DNA from: an uncultured Bacteroidales bacterium
GTDB taxonomy: Bacteria; Bacteroidota; Bacteroidia; Bacteroidales; FEN-979
Direction: 5' to 3'
Assembly: GCA_903824935.1 (NCBI GenBank)
Contig: CAIJYT010000144.1
Span: 1 to 42,959, forward strand
Length of the DNA stretch: 42,959 bases
Under the pieces are notes generated by a model, which worked only from the letters and a program-made list of their open reading frames with translations, made no database searches and had not been told where the DNA came from. The position numbers and the translations under genes were made by a program. Below are positions 11,530-21,043 of the stretch, one piece after another. Numbering within the stretch: the stretch's first letter is position 1; each line of letters begins with the position of its first letter.

Positions 11530-12519
11530 TTAATACGCCCACTTAACCCATACGCTTCCCCAGGTAAACCCTCCCCCGAAAGCAGCAAGTATCACATTGT
11601 CGCCTTTCTTCAGTTTGTTTTCCCATTCCCAGAGACATAACGGTATGGTGCCTCCGGTGGTATTGCCGTAACGTTCAATGTTTATCATGACCCGGTCTGT
11701 TCCGACTCCCATGCGTCGGGCAGTAGCATCTATAATGCGCAGGTTTGCCTGGTGAGGAACGAGGTATGCAACATCTTCCGATTTCAGGTTGTTCCTTGCC
11801 ATGATCTCTGCTGCCGCATCCGCCATTTTAGTCACTGCAAATTTGAAAACAGGCTGACCTTCCTGGTATACGAAATGTTCTCCGGCATCAATTGTCTCAT
11901 ATGATGATGGTTTCAGTGAACCACCGGCCTTCATGTGAAGGTGTACCCTGCCCGATCCGTCCGATTGCATGATGGAATCCATGATCCCTACTTCATCTTC
12001 GGTAGGCTCAAGTAAAATCGCACCTGCGCCATCCCCAAACAGGACACAGGTTTCCCGGTTGGTGTAGTCTACGATGGATGACATTTTATCGGCCCCCACA
12101 ACAATGGCTTTTTTAATTGAGCCCGTCTCGATGAATTTGGATGCCGTCACCAGTGCATAAATAAGACCTGAACAGGCAGCATTCAGGTCGTAACTGAACG
12201 CATTCTTTATCCCGGCCTTGTCACAGATTATATTTGCTGTTGCAGGGAATACCATATCAGGTGTAACAGTAGCGCAGATCAAAAGACCAATCTCTTCGGG
12301 ACGGGTTCCTGTTTTCTCACACAGGGCTTTTACGGCTTCGGCTCCCATATCGGAAGTTCCAAGACCTTCTCCCTTCAGGATATGCCTTTCCTTAATGCCT
12401 GTACGCGACATGATCCACTCATCCGAGGTATCGACCATGGATTCCAGCTCTTTATTGGTAAGAATGTAAGGAGGAACCCAACCCTGAATTCCTGTGATTG
12501 CAGCCCTGATCCTGGTCAT
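11530..12519 (-). CDS. fabH: 3-oxoacyl-ACP synthase III
   Basis: A 329-residue condensing enzyme that starts fatty-acid synthesis by joining an acyl-CoA primer to malonyl-ACP. The Cys-His-Asn triad is visible: Cys116 in LNAACSGL, His256 in VPHQANLR and Asn286 in ERYGNTTGG. I chose Met at 12519 (MTRIRAAITG), which begins the family fold and lies 10 bases after the plsX stop; an earlier Met at 12564 would add 15 residues and overlap plsX. It is last in the DUF177-rpmF-plsX-fabH operon, an order kept across many bacteria. Confidence 0.97.
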   Translation of the reverse strand: MTRIRAAITGIQGWVPPYILTNKELESMVDTSDEWIMSRTGIKERHILKGEGLGTSDMGAEAVKALCEKTGTRPEEIGLLICATVTPDMVFPATANIICDKAGIKNAFSYDLNAACSGLIYALVTASKFIETGSIKKAIVVGADKMSSIVDYTNRETCVLFGDGAGAILLEPTEDEVGIMDSIMQSDGSGRVHLHMKAGGSLKPSSYETIDAGEHFVYQEGQPVFKFAVTKMADAAAEIMARNNLKSEDVAYLVPHQANLRIIDATARRMGVGTDRVMINIERYGNTTGGTIPLCLWEWENKLKKGDNVILAAFGGGFTWGSVWVKWAY

Positions 12520-12529
12520 TGGATGATGT

Positions 12530-13489
12530 TTAAAAATTGTTGATTGTGTACTGCTCAAGCGCATGTTTGATTTTGGCAGGCAGCTCAGCTAAGGTGATTT
12601 CCCTCGAAAGCAGGATCATGTTTTTAATTGCTGTACTGTTTGAGATCCCATGGCCGACGATCACGTTCCCGTTCACGCCCAGGATTGGGGTGCCTCCATA
12701 AATCTCATAGTTGAAACGGTCGAGATAAGAATCTTTGATCCCGCGTTTCACCAGGACCCTGTACATGGCTTCTATCTGTTTCAGCACGATGTTTCCGACA
12801 AAACCATCGCATACGATGACATCAATATTATCCCTGAATAATTCCCTTCCTTCAACATTTCCGATGAAATTATAGTCTTTCGAATCTTTCATCAGCTGGA
12901 AGGCCGACTGGGTGGTAAGACTGCCTTTTTTTTCTTCTGATCCTATACTGAGAAGGCCTACCCTGGGATTCTTGACATGGAATACATATTCTGCAAAAAG
13001 CGACCCCAGCAGCCCGAACTGGTACATGACGTCGGGTTTGGCATCAGGATTGGTTCCCACATCAATAAGAATGGACATCCCTCCGTTCTCTTTTGCAATA
13101 TAAGCAGGAGAACTCGGGCGGATAATTCCCTGGATATTCCCGACACTGTAAATCGCTCCGACAAGCATGGCACCGCTGCTTCCCGCACTGGCAAAGGAAT
13201 TGATCTCCTCATGTTTCAGAAGCCGGAAACCTGTTGAAATACTTGAGTTTGGCTTGTTAACAAGAGCCTTTGTGGGGCTTTCATCCATCTCTATCAGATC
13301 GGGAGCATCCACGATATCAAATATCGAAGGACTTACATTTTCTTCCTTCAGGAAAGCAAGAATAATATCCTTGTCCCCGATCAAAACGATCTTGTCGCTG
13401 GGAGGTAGCTCTTTATGAGCCATTAATGCACCATGCAAAGTAGCATTAGGTGCAAAATCCCCTCCCAAAACATCTAACCCGATCCTCAT
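12530..13489 (-). CDS. plsX: Phosphate acyltransferase PlsX
   Basis: A 319-residue peripheral membrane enzyme that converts acyl-ACP to acyl-phosphate, the donor for PlsY in phosphatidic acid synthesis. It shows the family start MRIGLDVLGGDFAPNATLHGA, the SAGSSGAMLVGA segment and CDGFVGNIVLKQIEA. The position between rpmF and fabH fits the conserved cluster that links ribosome and membrane lipid synthesis. Confidence 0.97.
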   Translation of the reverse strand: MRIGLDVLGGDFAPNATLHGALMAHKELPPSDKIVLIGDKDIILAFLKEENVSPSIFDIVDAPDLIEMDESPTKALVNKPNSSISTGFRLLKHEEINSFASAGSSGAMLVGAIYSVGNIQGIIRPSSPAYIAKENGGMSILIDVGTNPDAKPDVMYQFGLLGSLFAEYVFHVKNPRVGLLSIGSEEKKGSLTTQSAFQLMKDSKDYNFIGNVEGRELFRDNIDVIVCDGFVGNIVLKQIEAMYRVLVKRGIKDSYLDRFNYEIYGGTPILGVNGNVIVGHGISNSTAIKNMILLSREITLAELPAKIKHALEQYTINNF

Positions 13490-13549
13490 TAGACAGAAAT
13501 TTGGTGAACGACTGATTAATTCGTCGGCGAATAATCCCGCATTTCCGGA

Positions 13550-13735
13550 TTATTCCGCAGCTGCCTTTACAACAGCCTGCTTCCCACGGTAATAACCGCA
13601 TTCCGGACATACCCTGTGGTAAAGAACCGGTGCGCCGCAATTGGTGCAAAGGGCAAAGGTAGGGCTTTCAGCTTTATCATGTGTCCTTCTTTTATCCCTG
13701 CGTTGATTCGAAATTTTTCGTTTAGGATGTGGCAT
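13550..13735 (-). CDS. rpmF: Ribosomal protein L32
   Basis: A 61-residue basic protein of the large ribosomal subunit. The start MPHPKRKISNQRRDKRRTH is the family signature. Four cysteines in the pattern CTNC...CPEC form a zinc ribbon, so this is the zinc-binding form. The C-terminal tail (GKQAVVKAAAE) is ordinary. It lies 60 bases upstream of plsX and 67 bases downstream of the DUF177 gene, with a heptamer array in that second spacer. Confidence 0.97.
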   Translation of the reverse strand: MPHPKRKISNQRRDKRRTHDKAESPTFALCTNCGAPVLYHRVCPECGYYRGKQAVVKAAAE

Positions 13736-13776
13736 ACTATTTATGTATTAATGTTAATCTGATAATTAAATTCAAA

Positions 13777-13804
13777 ATTCGTTATTCGTTATTCGTTATT
13801 CGTT
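13777..13804 (-). repeat. Four exact heptamers starting at the DUF177 stop codon
   Basis: ATTCGTT is repeated four times without error at 13777-13804; read with the genes it is AACGAAT. The DUF177 stop codon TAA (13803-13805) overlaps the first unit met. The array occupies much of the 67-base spacer before rpmF, inside an operon of essential genes. Confidence 0.92.
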
Positions 13805-14324
13805 ATTCCTTTTCTTTAAGCTTTCTTAGGACTTCCCATCGCGGATCAGGCTCATGAGTAAAGTCAGGATCTTCAAGTCTCTTTATAACGTCAGGATTAC
13901 AAAGACTTTTTCCTTTACTGTCATTCCCGTGAACACGGTGTGCCGGCAACATCACGCACACATATTCATAAAGGAAGTGACTGATATCAACCCGGCCATC
14001 AGATTCCTTGATAATCAGGATGTCTTCACTTTCTTCCTCATAGTGGTCGCTGAGCTTTACAACCAGGTTCTGCTTGCCGGCGATTTCAATAACCAGCGGA
14101 TCCCCGCATCGATCACAAACCATACCGAGGGTCCCAAGGATATCGAAAAGGAAAACAAGCATCCGCTCATCTTTCTCCATCTCAGTGAGGATCTTTATTT
14201 TGCAGTCAGTGATATCACTGTAACTATAATGTTCAAAGAACGAATGATCTAAAGTGAGTTCAAAATTATGCAGTCCGGGTTTCAATCCACTGAACTGGAT
14301 CTGGTATTTCTCCATTTTGTCCAC
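13803..14324 (-). CDS. DUF177 (YceD-like) protein
   Basis: A 173-residue cytoplasmic protein of the DUF177/YceD family, which almost always precedes rpmF and has been linked to 23S rRNA accumulation and large-subunit assembly in other organisms. The family's CxxC pair is seen in MVCDRCGDPLVIEI; the later NLVVKLSDHYEEESEDILII segment is also typical. It is the first gene of the operon, with a near-consensus promoter directly upstream. Confidence 0.88.
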   Translation of the reverse strand: MDKMEKYQIQFSGLKPGLHNFELTLDHSFFEHYSYSDITDCKIKILTEMEKDERMLVFLFDILGTLGMVCDRCGDPLVIEIAGKQNLVVKLSDHYEEESEDILIIKESDGRVDISHFLYEYVCVMLPAHRVHGNDSKGKSLCNPDVIKRLEDPDFTHEPDPRWEVLRKLKEKE

Positions 14325-14342
14325 TTGACTTCAAAAAGCCTG

Positions 14343-14374
14343 CAAAATTAAAAATTTATTTGATGACTACCAAA
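14343..14374 (-). promoter_or_regulatory. Near-consensus promoter for DUF177-rpmF-plsX-fabH
   Basis: On the minus strand, TTTG (14371-14374), 20 bases and TAATTTTG (14343-14350) match the Bacteroidota consensus at every defined base. The -7 box ends 18 bases before the DUF177 start codon, so the leader would be about a dozen bases. Confidence 0.75.
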
Positions 14375-14404
14375 ACTGTTATAAGCCATATACTTGTATT
14401 TCTA

Positions 14405-14412
14405 TATATTTG
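14405..14412 (+). promoter_or_regulatory. -7 box for the proline dehydrogenase gene
   Basis: TATATTTG matches the -7 consensus and lies 19 bases before the chosen ATG at 14432. This placement would put the in-frame Met at 14360 upstream of the transcription start, supporting the shorter protein. The -33 region is weak. Confidence 0.45.
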
Positions 14413-14431
14413 CCCCATAAAATTCAAGATT

Positions 14432-15343
14432 ATGTTCAATACGATTATAACCTGGATGATCCCTTTCATGCCCAAAAAACTGGTATGGATCTTCTCTAAA
14501 AAATACATTGCCGGCGAGACTATCGATGATGCGGTAAAAGTAAGCAGGGCGCTCAATGCCGATGGTATAAAGATCACCATTGACCTTCTCGGAGAGTTCA
14601 TAACAACGCTTGATGAGGCTGCCGAAAATAAAGCGGCCTACCTCACTATCATTGACAGGATCCAGAAAGAAAAGATTGACGGGAATTATTCTTTGAAACC
14701 AACAAGTTTCGGATTGCTTCTTGATAAGCAGGTATGTTTTGCACATATCCTCGAAATCGTTGCCAAAGCCGCTTCCTACGGCAATTTTGTTCGTATCGAC
14801 ATGGAGGACTCACCTTGTACCGACCTTGAGATCGAACTCTTCAGGAAGCTGAAACAGGAATTCCCGGCGAATGTCGGGCTGGTAGTCCAGGCCTATATGA
14901 GACGAACGCTACAGGACCTTAAAAACCTGAAGGATATTCATTCGGCTGAAACTCCTTTGAATTTCAGGCTTTGTAAAGGTATTTATGTTGAACCTGAGGC
15001 AATTGCATATAAAAAGTACCCCGAGGTCAATGAGCATTACCTTGAGGATCTTGAGTTCATGTTTGCCAACGGTTATTACCCGGGCATTGCAACCCATGAC
15101 CGGCCTCTGGTTGAAGGCGCGTATAAACTGATTGAAAAATACAATGTCCCCGGGAAAATGTACGAATTCCAGATGCTTTACGGTGTAACCCCCGATTTAA
15201 GAAAGAGCATAGTTGATAAAGGGCATACGATGAGAGTTTACGTTCCTTTCGGCAGGGAATGGTTCGGTTATTCGACACGCCGGTTGAAGGAAAACCCGAA
15301 AATGGCAAGCCTCATTATTAAGGCGATTTTCGTCAGAGGATAA
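14432..15343 (+). CDS. Proline dehydrogenase
   Basis: A 303-residue FAD enzyme that oxidises L-proline to pyrroline-5-carboxylate and passes electrons to quinone. Barrel motifs include DMEDSPCTDLEI, RLCKGIYVEPE, and the C-terminal substrate and FAD signature VYVPFGREWFGYSTRRLKEN. It is the monofunctional form, without the aldehyde dehydrogenase or regulatory parts of PutA. Pyrroline-5-carboxylate dehydrogenase is not nearby. I chose Met at 14432; an extension from 14360 adds 24 residues before the usual start. It converges on the fused flavoprotein gene with 14 bases between stops. Confidence 0.93.
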   Translation: MFNTIITWMIPFMPKKLVWIFSKKYIAGETIDDAVKVSRALNADGIKITIDLLGEFITTLDEAAENKAAYLTIIDRIQKEKIDGNYSLKPTSFGLLLDKQVCFAHILEIVAKAASYGNFVRIDMEDSPCTDLEIELFRKLKQEFPANVGLVVQAYMRRTLQDLKNLKDIHSAETPLNFRLCKGIYVEPEAIAYKKYPEVNEHYLEDLEFMFANGYYPGIATHDRPLVEGAYKLIEKYNVPGKMYEFQMLYGVTPDLRKSIVDKGHTMRVYVPFGREWFGYSTRRLKENPKMASLIIKAIFVRG

Positions 15344-15357
15344 GAAGGATGTACCAA

Positions 15358-18300
15358 TTACTTAAACGCTTTCTCCGGCATCCCGTCACCGCTGAGTCCC
15401 AGCCTTGCAAAATAAGTCGGGACAGGTTTACCCATCAGGCTATCCACATACATTTTTGCAAGGTATTGTCCCAGCATGAAACCCTGGCCCCTCAGGCCGA
15501 GGAACAAACCTGATTCCGGGTCGATAACCATCCTGGGTTCAACATAATAGCCTGCCCATACCGCCTGGAAACCAACTGAAGAAAGCTCAGGTATCCAGTT
15601 TGTAAATACTTCGGAAGCGATCTCAACAAAATCTTCGGAGTTGACCTTTATGTTTTTTTCAGATTCCTGAGGATCTACTGCCGGTGAGGCACAACCAATG
15701 ATTTGCCCTGTTTCGGCCAGTTGCTGACCATACACTGCCGAGAATCCCTTATACTTTCTCCTGTCGATCAGCATGGGAAGCGGGCTTCCGTCTTTTCCAA
15801 GCATGGGCAGGCGGCGTGTTATAAAGGCCTGGTGCTTTACAGAATAAAGCCCCGTGTCAAAGCCGAGCATTTTAGCAAATTTGCCTCCTTCAGGCCCAAG
15901 TGCATTGATGAAGATCTCAGTCTCATATTCAATATATTCCTTCTCATGGTTCAGAGCAAGGACTTTGTAATGGCCGTTCACCCTGCTAACATCCACAAGA
16001 CGGCAATCTTCTTCAATCCTTCCGCCTTTTTCTAATCCAATGCGCCGGATCAGGTCGATAACCCTTCCCGGGGTTGCCTGCCAGCAGTCTTTGGTGATAA
16101 GTGCGGCCAGGTAATTGTTCATTGATGGATTGATCCTGGGAGATATCTCTTTTCGAAAATCCTTTGGCTCAACCATGAAAGCGTTGGACCACGATCTGGA
16201 TGTTTCCAGGGCACTTAACATCTGCTCATCGTGGGCAAACGTTACATAAAGTATTGGCCTGAAATCAATGTTATGGATGTGCTGAAGTTCAGTGAATATT
16301 TCGAGATTATGATTTGCAATATCGCTTAGCTCAGGCACAGAGAAGTTGGGACGGCCGCCTGCTATGTTACGCCAGGAAGCACCTCGCCCGAAATTCAGCA
16401 ATACTGGCTCTTTGCCGGCTTCACTGAGGTAACGGAACAAAGCGCTTCCCCCAATGCCTCCCCCTGCAATCACTGCATTGACCCTGATCTTTTTCGTCTT
16501 CTTCCCGTTGATCTCCGTGATGACCTGTTCATGCACGTTCCTGGGATAAAGCTCTCCCATGGCAACCTGGTTCGACAGGGGTCCCCGGGGTGTCGGTTCA
16601 CCAACTATGCTGATCCCTGTTCCGGCAAGGCGTGTCTTGAGTCGTTTTATACAACGCTTTCCCCTGCACGCCCCCATTCCAAGCCTCGTGGTATGCTTAA
16701 CCTCATCCACAGAGATAAATTTCCATTCACCTATCACTTCCATGATCTCGTCAAGGGTCACATCATCGCAATGACATACGTATGTAGCTCCCTCAGCTGT
16801 ATTCTGGTACGGCTTGAATTCAACAGGCTCAGGATAAGCCGGTTTGACAATAAACCCCCTCACAGCGGTAAGGTCCTTACCGTGTATGTCGACAGTCCTT
16901 ACCCTTGCTATATTCGTTTTATTATGCTTTCGGAAGATCTTCTCTACAACGCCTTCGCCAAGTTTCTTACCATTGTTGTCAACCAGGAAACATTCCGATT
17001 TTTCTTCTACCGCATATTCTATAGGCAGGAACAGCCAGTCTTTTTTCAAATTATAACCGAAGATGGCCAGGCCAGGGCACTGGTAAACACAGTCCATGCA
17101 TCCAGTGCATTTATTGAAATCTATTTCAGGTACATTACTTGTGGATGACTTGGTGATGGCCCCGTTCGGGCATGAAAATGCACAGGGATTGCAGGCAAAA
17201 CCATACAGGCAGTCGATCAGTACGAAGCCTTTCTCATTCATCCTGTCAAGGCCGGGCAGGTATGGATCCTGGATGATACGGACAGGATGCTGCTGGGAAT
17301 CAATATATTCCTTTGAGAGGGAAAGAAAAGCGTCATAATCATAACGTTCGCCCATCTCCTGGATAATCTCATAAGCAACCTGCTGTCCCCTGAGCACCGC
17401 ACTGGTTCCTTCGCCAATACGGATGGCGTCGCCCGCCCCGAAACATTTCCTGCCGAAGACCTCGTTTCCCTTGATAAGAAGCTGGTCGTCGCAGACCAGG
17501 CCTGTGCAGATATTGATGGCATCGATGCCGTCAATAATTTTTTCTGTTCCCGGTATGGGTTTGAAATTTTTACATTCGGCAACCACGGCTCCAATAATGC
17601 CGTCGTGTGTTTCATTCGGGATGGCTTTAAGCAGGATATGGGATGTGAGGACAGGAATTCCAAGCCTTCTCACCCTGTTTGCCTGCACAGGAAAGCCTCC
17701 TTCGTTCGGAAGAGCTTCAATGATGGCCTTTACGCTGGCCCCGGCCTGCATAAGCTGGTATGAGGTGAGGTATCCTATGTTCCCTGCCCCGACGGTGAGT
17801 ACATTCTTCCCAAGCAGGGTCAGTTCGCTGTTCATCATTTTCTGAACCACGGCCGCAGTGAATACCCCCGGGAGGTCATCATTCTCAAAGGTGGGCATGA
17901 ACGGGACTGCGCCGGTTGCAACGATAAGGAATTCGCTGTCAACAAAGTAGATCTCATCGGTGAGGATATTCTTTACTGCAAGCCTCCCTCCTTCAAGGAT
18001 ATCCCATACCGTAGAATTAAGGAATATGCCCTCATGATCCTCACCTGCAAGTGTTTTCGCAATGTCGAAACCTCTCATTCCCCCGAACTTCTGCTCCTTT
18101 TCAAAGAAGAAGAACTGGTGGGTCTGCATCAGGAACTGTCCGCCAATCTTGTCATTATTATCGATCACTATGCAGTCGACCTTATGCCTGTTAAGTTCTT
18201 CACGGGCTGCCAGCCCGGCGGGGCCGGATCCTATAATGACTACCGTCGATTTATACACTTTCAGAGGTTCGTTTTTTTTCACCTCTGAAGGATTTGGCTC

Positions 18301-18591
18301 GAAATTATGGGGGATCTCTCTTACTTCCTTTATGCCATCCACCCTTGTAATACAGATCCTTTTGATCTGATCATCGACAAGCATCTCGCATGCTCCGCAT
18401 TTCCCAATGCCGCATTCAAGGCTTCGTTCACGGTTTTTCAAGCTGTGGCTGTGGACCGGGAATCCTGCCTGGTGCAGGGCAGCAGCAATAGTGAACCCTT
18501 TTTCTCCGGTAACCGCCCTTCCTTCAAAAAGGAAAGTAGTGGTGTTCGGTTCGGGAATGTCAAGGATGGGGTGTTTCGTGATCTTATACAT
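15358..18591 (-). CDS. Giant fused iron-sulfur flavoprotein (HcnABC/hydroxyproline dehydrogenase-like)
   Basis: A 1077-residue protein that joins parts usually made as two or three subunits. In order: a [2Fe-2S] domain (Cys60, 65, 68, 80); an FAD/NAD oxidoreductase with GSGPAG at 121-126 and a second nucleotide fold VGAGNIG near 267-273; two [4Fe-4S] motifs (Cys461, 467, 470, 474 and 495, 498, 501, 505); a BFD-like [2Fe-2S] domain (Cys606, 608, 642, 647); and a D-amino-acid-oxidase fold from about 704, with AGGGIGG at 709-715. The parts match the alpha, gamma and beta subunits of HcnABC, opine oxidase and D-hydroxyproline dehydrogenase. The substrate is unknown; proline dehydrogenase next door suggests an imino or amino acid. 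Start chosen at 18591. Confidence 0.88.
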   Translation of the reverse strand: MYKITKHPILDIPEPNTTTFLFEGRAVTGEKGFTIAAALHQAGFPVHSHSLKNRERSLECGIGKCGACEMLVDDQIKRICITRVDGIKEVREIPHNFEPNPSEVKKNEPLKVYKSTVVIIGSGPAGLAAREELNRHKVDCIVIDNNDKIGGQFLMQTHQFFFFEKEQKFGGMRGFDIAKTLAGEDHEGIFLNSTVWDILEGGRLAVKNILTDEIYFVDSEFLIVATGAVPFMPTFENDDLPGVFTAAVVQKMMNSELTLLGKNVLTVGAGNIGYLTSYQLMQAGASVKAIIEALPNEGGFPVQANRVRRLGIPVLTSHILLKAIPNETHDGIIGAVVAECKNFKPIPGTEKIIDGIDAINICTGLVCDDQLLIKGNEVFGRKCFGAGDAIRIGEGTSAVLRGQQVAYEIIQEMGERYDYDAFLSLSKEYIDSQQHPVRIIQDPYLPGLDRMNEKGFVLIDCLYGFACNPCAFSCPNGAITKSSTSNVPEIDFNKCTGCMDCVYQCPGLAIFGYNLKKDWLFLPIEYAVEEKSECFLVDNNGKKLGEGVVEKIFRKHNKTNIARVRTVDIHGKDLTAVRGFIVKPAYPEPVEFKPYQNTAEGATYVCHCDDVTLDEIMEVIGEWKFISVDEVKHTTRLGMGACRGKRCIKRLKTRLAGTGISIVGEPTPRGPLSNQVAMGELYPRNVHEQVITEINGKKTKKIRVNAVIAGGGIGGSALFRYLSEAGKEPVLLNFGRGASWRNIAGGRPNFSVPELSDIANHNLEIFTELQHIHNIDFRPILYVTFAHDEQMLSALETSRSWSNAFMVEPKDFRKEISPRINPSMNNYLAALITKDCWQATPGRVIDLIRRIGLEKGGRIEEDCRLVDVSRVNGHYKVLALNHEKEYIEYETEIFINALGPEGGKFAKMLGFDTGLYSVKHQAFITRRLPMLGKDGSPLPMLIDRRKYKGFSAVYGQQLAETGQIIGCASPAVDPQESEKNIKVNSEDFVEIASEVFTNWIPELSSVGFQAVWAGYYVEPRMVIDPESGLFLGLRGQGFMLGQYLAKMYVDSLMGKPVPTYFARLGLSGDGMPEKAFK

Positions 18592-18829: not shown

Positions 18830-18847
18830 CTGTGAATATTTTCACAG
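18830..18847. terminator. Hairpin overlapping the stop of the outer-membrane protein gene
   Basis: CTGTGAA (18830-18836), TATT, TTCACAG (18841-18847) form a perfect 7-bp stem with a four-base loop. The stop codon of the barrel gene (18842-18844) lies in one arm. On the minus strand it is followed by a short U-poor stretch and then a run of A, so it is a modest terminator candidate. Confidence 0.45.
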
Positions 18848-19777
18848 ATGAAAATCAAATCCGAACGACAGTAAGTTTTCCATCCTGAGTTGTTTGCTTA
18901 CGTCTTCATCGTAAAACAGCCTTGTCTGGAGGCTGGTTTTAAGATAATTGTTGATCCTGTACGCAAAGAGGTTTTTCAATGTCAGATCAACCTGTGATTG
19001 GTCGGCCTTGAACAGCAATAAATCGCAATTCCATTGAAGTTTTTTACCTATTGCACGGTCCACAAGCAGGTGCATGCTTAGCCCGTATTCGATGTGCTTT
19101 CTCTGTCCCTTTTCCACTCCGTAAAATGTATCACGGCCGGTTTTATCAAAAATACCCTGATCGAGCAGCCAGGTCAGTTTAGCTGAACTCAGGCCGATAT
19201 CGATTATCCCGGTTTTTTTCAGTTCGAAGCCAAGGCCGCCCGAGAAGGTGCAGACCAGTGGGGTGAGAAAAGATGAATTTATTGTCCTGGTAACTGAACC
19301 TCCAGCTCCCGCCGAGGCATCCCAGGCATTGAATAGCCTTGTTGTAAGAATGGAAGACAGCATAAACCTTAAACCCTGTTCCAGGGAATAACTGATCCTT
19401 GTATTAAGGGTGTTTTCGTCGGTCTGGAACTTAGAGATGCTGTCAAGATAATAAACAAGCCCGAGGTTGTGAACAAGATCGTTGGTGATCTGAACCCGTT
19501 TCGAAATAATGCTGATCTTGTATTTTATGCTTTGGAGGAAGGCCAACTGGCCGGCGGTTTTATCGTCCTTGCCGTTAATGCTGGAATAGGCTGTTGCTGA
19601 AATACTGTAATCGAATTCATCGTTGAGGCTGAACCGACCTGGCAATGCCGGCAATTTTGGCCTGAAAACCAGCGAATGGCCCGAATTATCCCAGTTCAGG
19701 CCCTGGGCATCAAGTGACGCCGGAAGCAGACATGCTGCAAACAGGCAGCCCAGGAATACCATTTTCCCCATTGCCAT
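18842..19777 (-). CDS. Outer-membrane beta-barrel-like protein of unknown function
   Basis: A 311-residue exported protein. A signal peptide ends near LDAQG (about residue 25). The rest alternates polar and apolar residues in many short strands, such as SLEQGLRFMLSSILTTRLFNAW, and the protein ends in an aromatic-containing strand (FGFDFHL), both usual for outer-membrane barrels. It resembles the DUF3078 group in style, but I cannot claim membership. It follows the lipoprotein gene by 29 bases and is probably in its operon. Confidence 0.65.
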   Translation of the reverse strand: MAMGKMVFLGCLFAACLLPASLDAQGLNWDNSGHSLVFRPKLPALPGRFSLNDEFDYSISATAYSSINGKDDKTAGQLAFLQSIKYKISIISKRVQITNDLVHNLGLVYYLDSISKFQTDENTLNTRISYSLEQGLRFMLSSILTTRLFNAWDASAGAGGSVTRTINSSFLTPLVCTFSGGLGFELKKTGIIDIGLSSAKLTWLLDQGIFDKTGRDTFYGVEKGQRKHIEYGLSMHLLVDRAIGKKLQWNCDLLLFKADQSQVDLTLKNLFAYRINNYLKTSLQTRLFYDEDVSKQLRMENLLSFGFDFHL

Positions 19778-19806
19778 TCAGTGATTTGTTATGCATGAAC
19801 GACCTC

Positions 19807-20424
19807 TTATCGTGTTTTTGTTTCAGTCCTTATTAATTTCCCCGAAGCATTCCAGAAATCAAGGATGTCCATATCGACAAACAATACATTCACTTTCCCC
19901 GACTGAGCAGGCTGCGATTTAAGCGCAGAAGCTGCAATGCAAAAACTTGATTCGTTAAATTTGCCCATGAATTTTGCCCAGAAAATAACGCAGGTAAAAG
20001 CATATTTTGAAGGATCAAGATCAACCTTCTCCCCTACGGGCATCAGGTCCTTTTTAAGCCTGCCGAAAGTTGTCGATGAGTCGATCCTGCATGACTGGTT
20101 GATTTTCAGGTTCCCTGCAAAATCAGTCTCAACCCCCGAGCAGAATGTTGAATCCTGTGTGATGATACGGTAACCTGCAGAATTATAAAACTGGGACCTC
20201 CCTGGAAGGTTTTTATTTTTGCACCAGTCTACCAGGCCTGCAGAATCCCTGAATACACATAAGTATGAGGGATAGGCAGGGGAATAAAGATCCAGGTCAT
20301 GCCTCACCGATTCAACTGTTTCTATCTGAGGATCTTTGATAGCGTATTTTCTCATCATTGCCGGTTTGCAGGCAAACAATCCTGCCAATATGAGGGCCGG
20401 CAAAACAAACATCATTCGTTTCAT
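19807..20424 (-). CDS. Lipoprotein of unknown function
   Basis: A 205-residue protein with lipoprotein signal ending in LAGLFAC (Cys19). I do not recognise the mature part. It holds five more cysteines, at about 56, 68, 95, 112 and 145, and a sixth near 162, which would allow disulfides in the envelope. It lies between a terminator-like hairpin upstream and the barrel protein gene downstream, and probably makes a pair with that protein. Confidence 0.65.
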   Translation of the reverse strand: MKRMMFVLPALILAGLFACKPAMMRKYAIKDPQIETVESVRHDLDLYSPAYPSYLCVFRDSAGLVDWCKNKNLPGRSQFYNSAGYRIITQDSTFCSGVETDFAGNLKINQSCRIDSSTTFGRLKKDLMPVGEKVDLDPSKYAFTCVIFWAKFMGKFNESSFCIAASALKSQPAQSGKVNVLFVDMDILDFWNASGKLIRTETKTR

Positions 20425-20472
20425 AATCTGCTTGATTTTTTGGAAGAAAGAACCTGTATGTCGTTTTTATAA

Positions 20473-20508
20473 GGGATGCCGGGAATACAGATGAAATCCC
20501 GGCACCCC
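20473..20508 (-). terminator. GC-rich terminator hairpin before the lipoprotein gene
   Basis: Twelve-base arms GGGATGCCGGGA (20473-20484) and TCCCGGCACCCC (20497-20508) pair with one G-T wobble around a 12-base loop. On the minus strand the stem follows the secreted-protein gene and is trailed by TTATAAAAA. It therefore looks like an intrinsic terminator or attenuator between that gene and the lipoprotein gene at 20424. Confidence 0.7.
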
Positions 20509-20551
20509 CTCACCTTAACATCTATCGAAAAATGCAACACCCGGCTGATTA

Positions 20552-21043
20552 TTATATCGGGAAAGTAACCAGGTAAGAGCGTGCGGATGCATCATACACA
20601 ACAGTGTACGATCCCGATTTGATGGTGAGCTGGCTGTTCGTTCCGAGTTTCCTGGCTACAGGTTCTGAAAAAGTATATGGATCTTCAAATGCCAGGGTTC
20701 CGCTTCTAAAATAAGGAAGGGCAGATCCGTTCTCGTATTTCTGGAGGTCACCCTCGGAAACCATAAGTTCAAGCTGCCCTGCAGCATTGATTCTTGCCTG
20801 TGCCTGGCACTGGCCTGAGCCCGATCCTGCAACTTTATCAGTGCCGACTTCAATATCGAAGCAGATACCGAAGCCTGATTGGCATTGCAGCTTCGGGCGA
20901 TGAAACGTTATAATGAGCTTGATCCAGACCGAGTAACATGGCGACGGCCCGGGGTTAACATTTGCAGAAACAAATTGTCCTGCATGCACTGCACCGGCGG
21001 CAGTAAGCATGCTTACTAAAAAGATTGCAATAATTTTTTTCAT
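20552..21043 (-). CDS. Small secreted protein of unknown function
   Basis: A 163-residue protein with a signal peptide cleaved near VHAGQ (about residue 22). I do not recognise the mature part. It has five cysteines in the first 60 mature residues, including a CQSGFGICFDI stretch and GQCQAQA, and a C-terminal half of short strands (SGSYTVVYDASARSYLVTFPI). A disulfide-stabilised periplasmic or surface protein is a fair guess. Its upstream region has a promoter candidate and an unusually structured leader. Confidence 0.6.
   Translation of the reverse strand: MKKIIAIFLVSMLTAAGAVHAGQFVSANVNPGPSPCYSVWIKLIITFHRPKLQCQSGFGICFDIEVGTDKVAGSGSGQCQAQARINAAGQLELMVSEGDLQKYENGSALPYFRSGTLAFEDPYTFSEPVARKLGTNSQLTIKSGSYTVVYDASARSYLVTFPI

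Follow-up and report, generated by a model that had tools for sequence, protein, structure and literature searches.

A single-chain iron-sulfur flavoprotein of Bacteroidales as a candidate amine dehydrogenase akin to archaeal L-proline dehydrogenases

The minus strand of a 42,959-nucleotide contig from an uncultured Bacteroidales bacterium (CAIJYT010000144.1 of assembly GCA_903824935.1; this whole stretch is referred to here as the window) carries at 15358-18591 a gene for a single-chain Fe-S flavoprotein, and both gene and protein are labelled FUS in what follows. Its architecture, the conservation of its cluster and nucleotide-site residues, and its kinship are established. We tentatively propose, at close to an even chance, that FUS is a soluble FAD/Fe-S amine dehydrogenase in one chain, the fused counterpart of archaeal L-proline dehydrogenases, acting most likely on L-proline or a close cyclic or secondary amino acid. 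The fused chain was not described in the titles and abstracts of the open-access literature searched, subscription papers lying outside that search. Such a chain, predicted to hold two FAD sites and four Fe-S clusters, would be convenient for work on the coupling of amine oxidation to NAD or ferredoxin in anaerobes.

Architecture and conservation of the single chain

FUS is built, from its N-terminus, of a ferredoxin-type [2Fe-2S] domain, an FAD/NAD domain, two [4Fe-4S] motifs, a BFD-type [2Fe-2S] domain and a C-terminal DAO domain (Table 1). A reading of the window made from the sequence alone had already described a single-chain fusion with two different [2Fe-2S] domains, two [4Fe-4S] motifs and sixteen cluster cysteines, and Pfam matches and residue conservation agree with it: among 165 distinct homologues of at least 950 amino acids (aa), in which conservation was counted, 15 of the 16 cysteines are invariant and the remaining one, C80, is Cys in 164. 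In the [4Fe-4S] region the Pfam family Fer4 scores above its cut-off, and Fer4_9 and Fer4_7 below theirs. The N-terminal motif, C60-x4-C65-x2-C68-x11-C80, has the 4/2/11 spacing of the gamma-subunit motif C-x4-C-x2-C-x11~12-C given in excerpts of PMC4575208. The BFD domain follows the alpha-type pattern C-x-C...C-x4-C, its four cysteines being kept in 165/165 sequences; its pairs stand 33 residues apart, as in NoxA in our alignment, and the same excerpts (PMC4575208) put this spacing at 15~20. Pfam detects no Pro_dh (PF01619) domain in FUS at an E-value of 0.01, and the sarcosine oxidase alpha model TIGR01372 reaches 66.9 bits against a cut-off of 1164, with its best stretch at residues 115-329. 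A longer reading frame, starting as far upstream as 18756, was rejected because relatives align from the same Met as the 1077-aa frame, at whose start M1, I4, H7 and P8 are invariant in an alignment of 63 rows.

At least 580 relatives of FUS were found in genome contigs, and the 80 loci kept for comparison are 70-88% identical, with a match over residues 1-1077 in 76 of them. In a sample of 295 Bacteroidales genomes, 117 match FUS at 1e-10, and 109 of these hold one open, stop-free frame over at least residues 4-1076; seven more hold pieces, and the last (G435) has a 30% relative only, so that 116 genomes (about 40%) are counted as FUS-positive. Across a phylum sample of 296 genomes, FUS was matched in its own genome only.

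The single chain is a real gene, neither chance nor misassembly. An artefact of assembly, or an accidental read-through from one gene into another, could be suspected from two of the 80 loci (L057 and L068), where the gene calls split FUS into two frames, perhaps through sequencing errors; the chance of it is practically nil, because the frame runs uninterrupted in those 109 genomes, the linker is conserved among relatives in the alignment, as are the cysteines, and a Parabacteroides distasonis record carries the homologue as one coding sequence annotated "FAD-dependent oxidoreductase". In a P. distasonis record labelled as a plasmid (NZ_OY725834.1), FUS neighbours a phage-integrase-like gene and lies close to ppdK and rlmD; this record may represent part of a chromosome or a mobile island. 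Among the 80 loci kept, a single one carries a title outside the Bacteroidota, a Phycisphaerae-titled metagenome-assembled genome with a 71% identical copy (L064:4653-7880), for which misbinning and transfer are both possible; another locus (L019) bears the title "uncultured bacterium", with no phylum.

Kinship with multi-subunit amine dehydrogenases

As the sequence-only reading had stated, related enzymes are assembled from two to four kinds of subunits (PMC4575208, PMC4364671, in excerpts). The closest of known structure is the archaeal L-proline dehydrogenase PDH1 (PH1363/PH1364, PDB 1y56, alpha4beta4), which is the best sequence match in the PDB for both halves of FUS (1y56_A, 6.5e-14; 1y56_B, 2.3e-8; the same again with a profile) as well as the best match by fold. 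In a predicted model of the whole chain (pLDDT 78.8, pTM 0.69), the DAO domain superimposes best on 1y56_B (Z 37.1, rmsd 2.7, 350 residues aligned); next come sarcosine oxidase beta (Z 35.5), dimethylglycine dehydrogenase (35.4) and glycine oxidase (34.1). The core, residues 1-690, folded alone (pLDDT 73.1, pTM 0.67), matches 1y56_A over residues 1-683 (Z 23.1, rmsd 4.2, 433 aligned), tied with thioredoxin reductase (22.8, over the FAD/NAD domain alone, 112-415) and sarcosine oxidase alpha (22.5, over 1-684); the models are poor in several of the cluster loops. These sarcosine oxidase matches are to SoxA and SoxB of the heterotetrameric enzyme SoxAB (2gag, 1vrq, 3ada), where SoxA bears a folate-binding C-terminal half in place of the DAO domain of FUS. 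By description, FUS also resembles the alpha-beta-gamma-delta L-proline dehydrogenase of Thermococcus, one of whose four subunits is ferredoxin-like. Excerpts of PMC4364671 give its genes as pdhA, pdhF, pdhX and pdhB.

PDH1 has the same domain order in its alpha half and a DAO-type beta half, divided between two chains where FUS has one. The N-terminal [2Fe-2S] cysteines are lost in 1y56_A, according to our alignment and to excerpts of PMC1949818, and all four are kept in FUS, which in addition has the two [4Fe-4S] motifs and lacks the Arg of the FMN site. A similar set of modules, namely a [2Fe-2S] ferredoxin, an FAD alpha subunit with a BFD domain and a DAO beta subunit, makes up OdhABC/NoxAB, D-hydroxyproline dehydrogenase (D-HypDH, LhpB type) and HcnABC, a likeness read from the NoxAB, LhpB and Deinococcus operons, with Hcn sequences outside the comparison. 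Unlike FUS, the NoxAB/LhpB-type systems consist of three genes, keep the R-x-W motif and have neither the [4Fe-4S] pair nor the NAD-type GxGxxG in alpha.

The R-x-W motif of beta subunits, assigned to FMN binding in excerpts of PMC4575208, is kept in 9/9 complex-type rows other than FUS (seven beta subunits and the DAO proteins of genomes G435 and G454), and its Arg is replaced in all 165 FUS rows, by Ala in 161 and Ser in four; ThiO, SolA and DadA also lack it in the alignment. Conversely, the [4Fe-4S] pair and the motif GxGxxG...E occur in 165/165 FUS rows, the latter also in the G435/G454 relatives, whereas the six alpha subunits compared lack the pair and read GxGPL in place of the second GxGxxG. 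The second flavin-type site of the sequence-only reading is thereby borne out, with an NAD motif beside it. Excerpts of PMC4575208 report no NAD(P)+ activity for the three-subunit opine dehydrogenase (OpnDH) of Pseudomonas, whose own alpha sequence stood outside the six compared. That reading had placed FUS in an HcnABC/hydroxyproline-dehydrogenase type, and the family likeness holds; a plain sum of HcnABC does not describe the chain, given the absent FMN-site Arg, the two extra [4Fe-4S] motifs and an NAD motif kept unlike in the six alpha subunits, Hcn itself being outside this comparison. FUS probably works like the PDH1, OpnDH and D-HypDH enzymes and yet stands apart from that class; it is not filed as a member because the FMN motif is missing and the protein is not multi-subunit. 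The lost Arg and the kept NAD site give direct predictions, on flavin content and on acceptor, that would separate FUS from the OpnDH and D-HypDH types.

Among reference DAO proteins, the BLAST order for the FUS domain is led by those of G435 and G454, followed by four plasmid-borne beta subunits without known substrate and then by PDH1-beta. A 27-row tree groups FUS with PDH1-beta, two Azospirillum beta subunits and the G435/G454 proteins (support 95/93), the order inside this group being open. GlpA, GlpD and LhgD, enzymes of glycerol-3-phosphate and 2-hydroxyglutarate, fall outside the amine rows, with long branches flagged; a grouping of the DAO domain with glycerol-3-phosphate enzymes, the result that would have spoken against an amine or imino-acid enzyme, did not occur. 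The fold list, BLAST and the tree agree with the amine/imino-acid type suggested earlier, and on these comparisons of sequence the domain is kin to amine dehydrogenases, not to glycerol-3-phosphate enzymes. A non-amine DAO enzyme, for example a glycerol-3-phosphate or 2-hydroxy acid dehydrogenase, is thus very improbable. It could appeal to GlpA, which also ends in a BFD-type stretch (the NCBIfam GlpA model matches FUS at 596-658 only), and to GlpO (4x9m, Z 30.4), which appears among the DAO fold matches; GlpO ranks 47th of the 50 matches listed, and with BLAST the DAO domain aligns in full to none of GlpA, GlpD and LhgD. An archaeal dye-linked lactate dehydrogenase complex, considered by description as a non-amine precedent, is an FMN enzyme (PMC8704557, in part).

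On two plasmids of Azospirillum (L215:3993-6915 and L216:3951-6915), branched-chain-type ABC transporters precede a (2Fe-2S)/FAD/DAO unit of three genes; the DAO protein of this unit ranks with those nearest to FUS, and no substrate is annotated for the unit.

An unfused relative of FUS is found in G435 (L131:1873-9337) and G454 (L132:2392-9853). There, a protein of about 1290 aa matches the FUS core over its full length with its C-terminal 690 residues (28%, 249 bits), the NAD motif and the [4Fe-4S] pair both being present, and the next gene encodes the separate DAO protein, of 387 aa. In G435, Pfam shows further Fe-S motifs and an FlpD domain in the large protein (layout NuoG-FlpD-HcnAB-Fd-BFD) and a NuoE/F-like protein of 798 aa in the gene before it; G454 has a 797-aa open reading frame (ORF) in that place, the domain scan covering G435 only. 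With DAO as its own gene and extra NADH-dehydrogenase and FlpD modules, the unit appears to be an amine dehydrogenase complex linked to NADH, with electron bifurcation a possibility.

Proline genes beside FUS and across genomes

The proline dehydrogenase (PRODH) that the sequence-only reading had seen converging on FUS is confirmed by Pfam, and 14 bases separate the stop codons of the two genes (Table 1). It is the sole PF01619 match of its genome and scores 218 bits with the NCBIfam model ProDh_Thermus, below the cut-off of 500; the ORFs of most relatives are about 24 codons shorter. In two overlapping collections, PRODH lies within two genes of FUS at 21/180 loci. Across the 165 rows it is downstream and convergent in 13 (short type, one clade of 14 rows), upstream and divergent in five scattered rows (short type) and upstream and divergent in two whose PRODH is of a long and distant type (about 21% identical), so that adjacency has changed at least seven times on the 165-row tree. 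Counted by genome, the genes are adjacent in six (98 sampled with flanks, plus the genome of the window), from four families (f1, f64, f71, f152). A crude random placement over 35 families expects 0.02-0.04 adjacencies, and the probability of four is 1e-8 to 6e-8, with the reservations that not all four families belong to the 35 and that 78 genomes with both genes would make the expectation about twice as high. One further clade of five has pyrroline-5-carboxylate (P5C) dehydrogenase 2.4-5.9 kb from FUS; the copy in L028 passes TIGR01236 and the others were recognized by similarity to it.

Genome-wide co-occurrence was counted in the 295 Bacteroidales genomes and, as the sole control for kinship, in 118 with one genome per family; the family tests leave out G413, whose membership in the 119-genome set is unconfirmed, and the results hardly change. 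P5C dehydrogenase, for which an E-value of 1e-100 or better was required (175 genomes, 172 over the curated cut-off), is present in 99/116 genomes with FUS and 76/179 without, or 43/53 and 27/65 families (p 1.3e-5). ProC was counted at E <1e-20, three genomes with weak matches alone (G312, G317, G327) being dropped, and occurs in 7/53 families with FUS and 40/65 without; for ProA the counts are 2/53 and 34/65, and for ornithine aminotransferase (OAT) 51/53 and 39/65. Therefore, FUS marks lineages without canonical proline biosynthesis genes, where, if it acts on proline, it would add a step of amino-acid use. The genome of the window, about 95% complete, has P5C dehydrogenase, PRODH and OAT; ProC, ProA and Pro_racemase were not found in it at the thresholds used. 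The association with P5C dehydrogenase may reflect lifestyle together with a possible pathway link, and the proline reading rests mainly on neighbourhood and kinship, because this association weakens under conditioning: among families lacking ProA and ProC it is 36/45 with FUS against 14/24 without (p 0.088), and where PRODH is lacking too it is gone (9/15 against 5/7).

Besides this loss under conditioning, several observations weigh against our proposal. Oxidation of proline by NAD+ is uphill. The DAO domain is only about 21% identical to PDH1-beta, which the G435/G454 proteins and the four plasmid beta subunits outscore, and it sits on a long stem of 3.1 changes per column in the DAO tree. 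Asn733, present in 165/165 rows, takes the place of a Glu or Asp in the FAD Rossmann fold of relatives, and "EPR" replaces the "PD" of most relatives; both residue features mark the domain, by alignment, as a branch of its own. Of the 165 rows, 140 have neither PRODH within two genes nor P5C dehydrogenase in the flank, some flanks being short, and FUS and PRODH co-occur weakly (p 0.053 by genome; 34/53 against 33/65 families, p 0.19), 38/116 genomes with FUS being devoid of PRODH. Moreover, kinship alone does not fix the substrate, because OpnDH, close to the archaeal L-proline dehydrogenases, is inactive on L-proline (PMC4575208, in excerpts).

Some of these points would suit the same machine working on another substrate (sarcosine or N-methyl amino acids, glycine-like compounds, D-amino acids, opines or hydroxyproline), with the PRODH neighbourhood reflecting shared amino-acid catabolism. 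We regard this as possible, if less probable than the proline-type reading: sarcosine oxidase beta, dimethylglycine dehydrogenase and glycine oxidase come just below 1y56_B by fold, a third of the FUS genomes do without PRODH as just counted, related beta subunits differ widely in substrate (PMC4575208, in excerpts), and the proteins nearest in BLAST have no known one; the repeated adjacency to PRODH in different layouts speaks against it. For the hydroxyproline variant, the epimerase/racemase family PF05544 was counted in 24 genomes (E 2.8e-19 or better; 17 genomes with weaker matches, five over the family cut-off and none with FUS, were dropped). It is found in 7/116 genomes with FUS and 17/179 without (p 0.38). 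A D-hydroxyproline pathway was accordingly rejected and D-hydroxyproline is an unlikely substrate, because most genomes with FUS lack the epimerase; the D-hydroxyproline sense of the earlier type assignment is thereby left without support.

A replacement of PRODH by FUS was also considered. In genomes lacking PRODH, P5C dehydrogenase is present in 26/38 with FUS and 13/79 without, but this raw link is lost after conditioning on missing ProA and ProC, and a replacement is not claimed; if FUS acts on proline, it could help explain some genomes with P5C dehydrogenase and no PRODH.

The same gene counts could be read in the reverse direction, with FUS as a flavin/Fe-S P5C reductase that turns P5C from ornithine (through OAT) into proline with NADH, replacing ProC. 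The transfer from NADH to P5C is downhill, and the contrasts in ProC, ProA and OAT given above, as well as the gene content of the genome of the window, are what this direction would predict. Nevertheless, its chance appears slim: in families with OAT and without ProA, ProC is present in 6/50 with FUS and 6/26 without (p 0.32), so that FUS does not predict the loss of ProC and families with neither ProC nor FUS exist, the loss of ProA fits proline auxotrophy too, and the neighbouring PRODH is a catabolic enzyme.

Predicted reaction and other features of the window

Cofactor occupancy, electron order, NAD use, substrate and direction we infer from the features described, and an NAD(H)-linked activity of FUS, with its substrate and direction, is a prediction only. 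In the proposed amine dehydrogenase, the substrate would bind over the FAD of the DAO domain, with its carboxylate held by R747 (kept in 165/165 rows), and would hand two electrons to that flavin. These would pass singly through the BFD [2Fe-2S] cluster, the two [4Fe-4S] clusters and the N-terminal [2Fe-2S] cluster to the second FAD, which would reduce NAD+ at the GAGNIG/E292 site, or else the [4Fe-4S] domain could be where electrons are exchanged with ferredoxin. The P5C so formed would be passed on to the P5C dehydrogenase of the genome. Support for NAD(H) as the partner comes from the unfused relative, in which a FUS-like module is spread over separate genes next to an NADH-dehydrogenase-type unit.

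The same arrangement makes a bifurcating or confurcating variant thinkable, in which FUS would be a self-contained proline-type dehydrogenase that couples the amine/imine pair to NAD(H) at its second FAD and to ferredoxin at its [4Fe-4S] pair, the unfused relative with its NuoEF and FlpD modules being the multi-subunit form. We assign it a small probability, FUS itself appearing to show only the parts that would allow bifurcation; if it were true, a single soluble chain would allow anaerobes to use NAD+ as the oxidant for proline, with no need of quinone. Fold matches were discarded as an argument for bifurcation: besides thioredoxin reductase, an HdrA-like chain (6tjr) matches the FAD/NAD domain with Z 19.7, a common fold and hence uninformative. 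Nfn does not appear among the 50 core fold matches listed.

Table 1. Positions in the window of the FUS gene, its domains and motifs, and the convergent PRODH gene
Feature	Position	Strand	Basis or remark
FUS gene	15358..18591	minus	ORF including stop codon; 1077 aa
N-terminal ferredoxin-type [2Fe-2S] domain (HcnA/gamma-subunit type), residues 17-85	18337..18543	minus	Pfam Fer2_4, 2e-9
FAD/NAD domain (HcnB/PDH1-alpha type), residues 116-415	17347..18246	minus	Pfam Pyr_redox_2, 116-298; fold matches about 110-416
Second GxGxxG, residues 268-273 (GAGNIG), with E292 further on; predicted NAD(H) site	17773..17790	minus	
Two [4Fe-4S] motifs, C461/467/470/474 and C495/498/501/505	17077..17211	minus	Pfam dicluster, 466-507
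BFD-type [2Fe-2S] domain, residues 604-652, C606/608/642/647	16636..16782	minus	Pfam Fer2_BFD, 2.6e-8
DAO-type FAD domain, residues 706-1049; predicted substrate oxidation site	15445..16476	minus	Pfam DAO, 2.5e-28
A1010-V-W1012, position of the FMN-binding R-x-W of multi-subunit relatives	15556..15564	minus	Arg absent
R747, predicted carboxylate contact	16351..16353	minus	Aligned with Arg kept in PDH1-beta and nearest relatives
PRODH, short Thermus-type, convergent neighbour of FUS	14360..15343	plus	Pfam Pro_dh (PF01619), 1.2e-36

Other genes around FUS offer few clues. Same-strand neighbours within 150 bases occur at 45/99 loci and are of mixed kinds; nine of them, scanned against NCBIfam as candidate operon partners, were housekeeping, unrelated or unmatched at 1e-20 and were rejected. 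A scan for promoters and terminators gave no clear excess over shuffled sequence (5 against 4.5 and 6 against 4.3). Upstream of FUS, on the minus strand at 18842-21043, lie three ORFs of 311, 205 and 163 aa, with no Pfam or NCBIfam match at 0.01 and with counterparts in the closest relatives only. The group yceD-plsX-fabH and the gene glgA recur beside FUS, which looks like plain synteny. In the window, fabH, plsX and yceD lie downstream of FUS, within 11530-15343 together with PRODH, and many relatives show this gene order with PRODH absent, so that PRODH may have been inserted.

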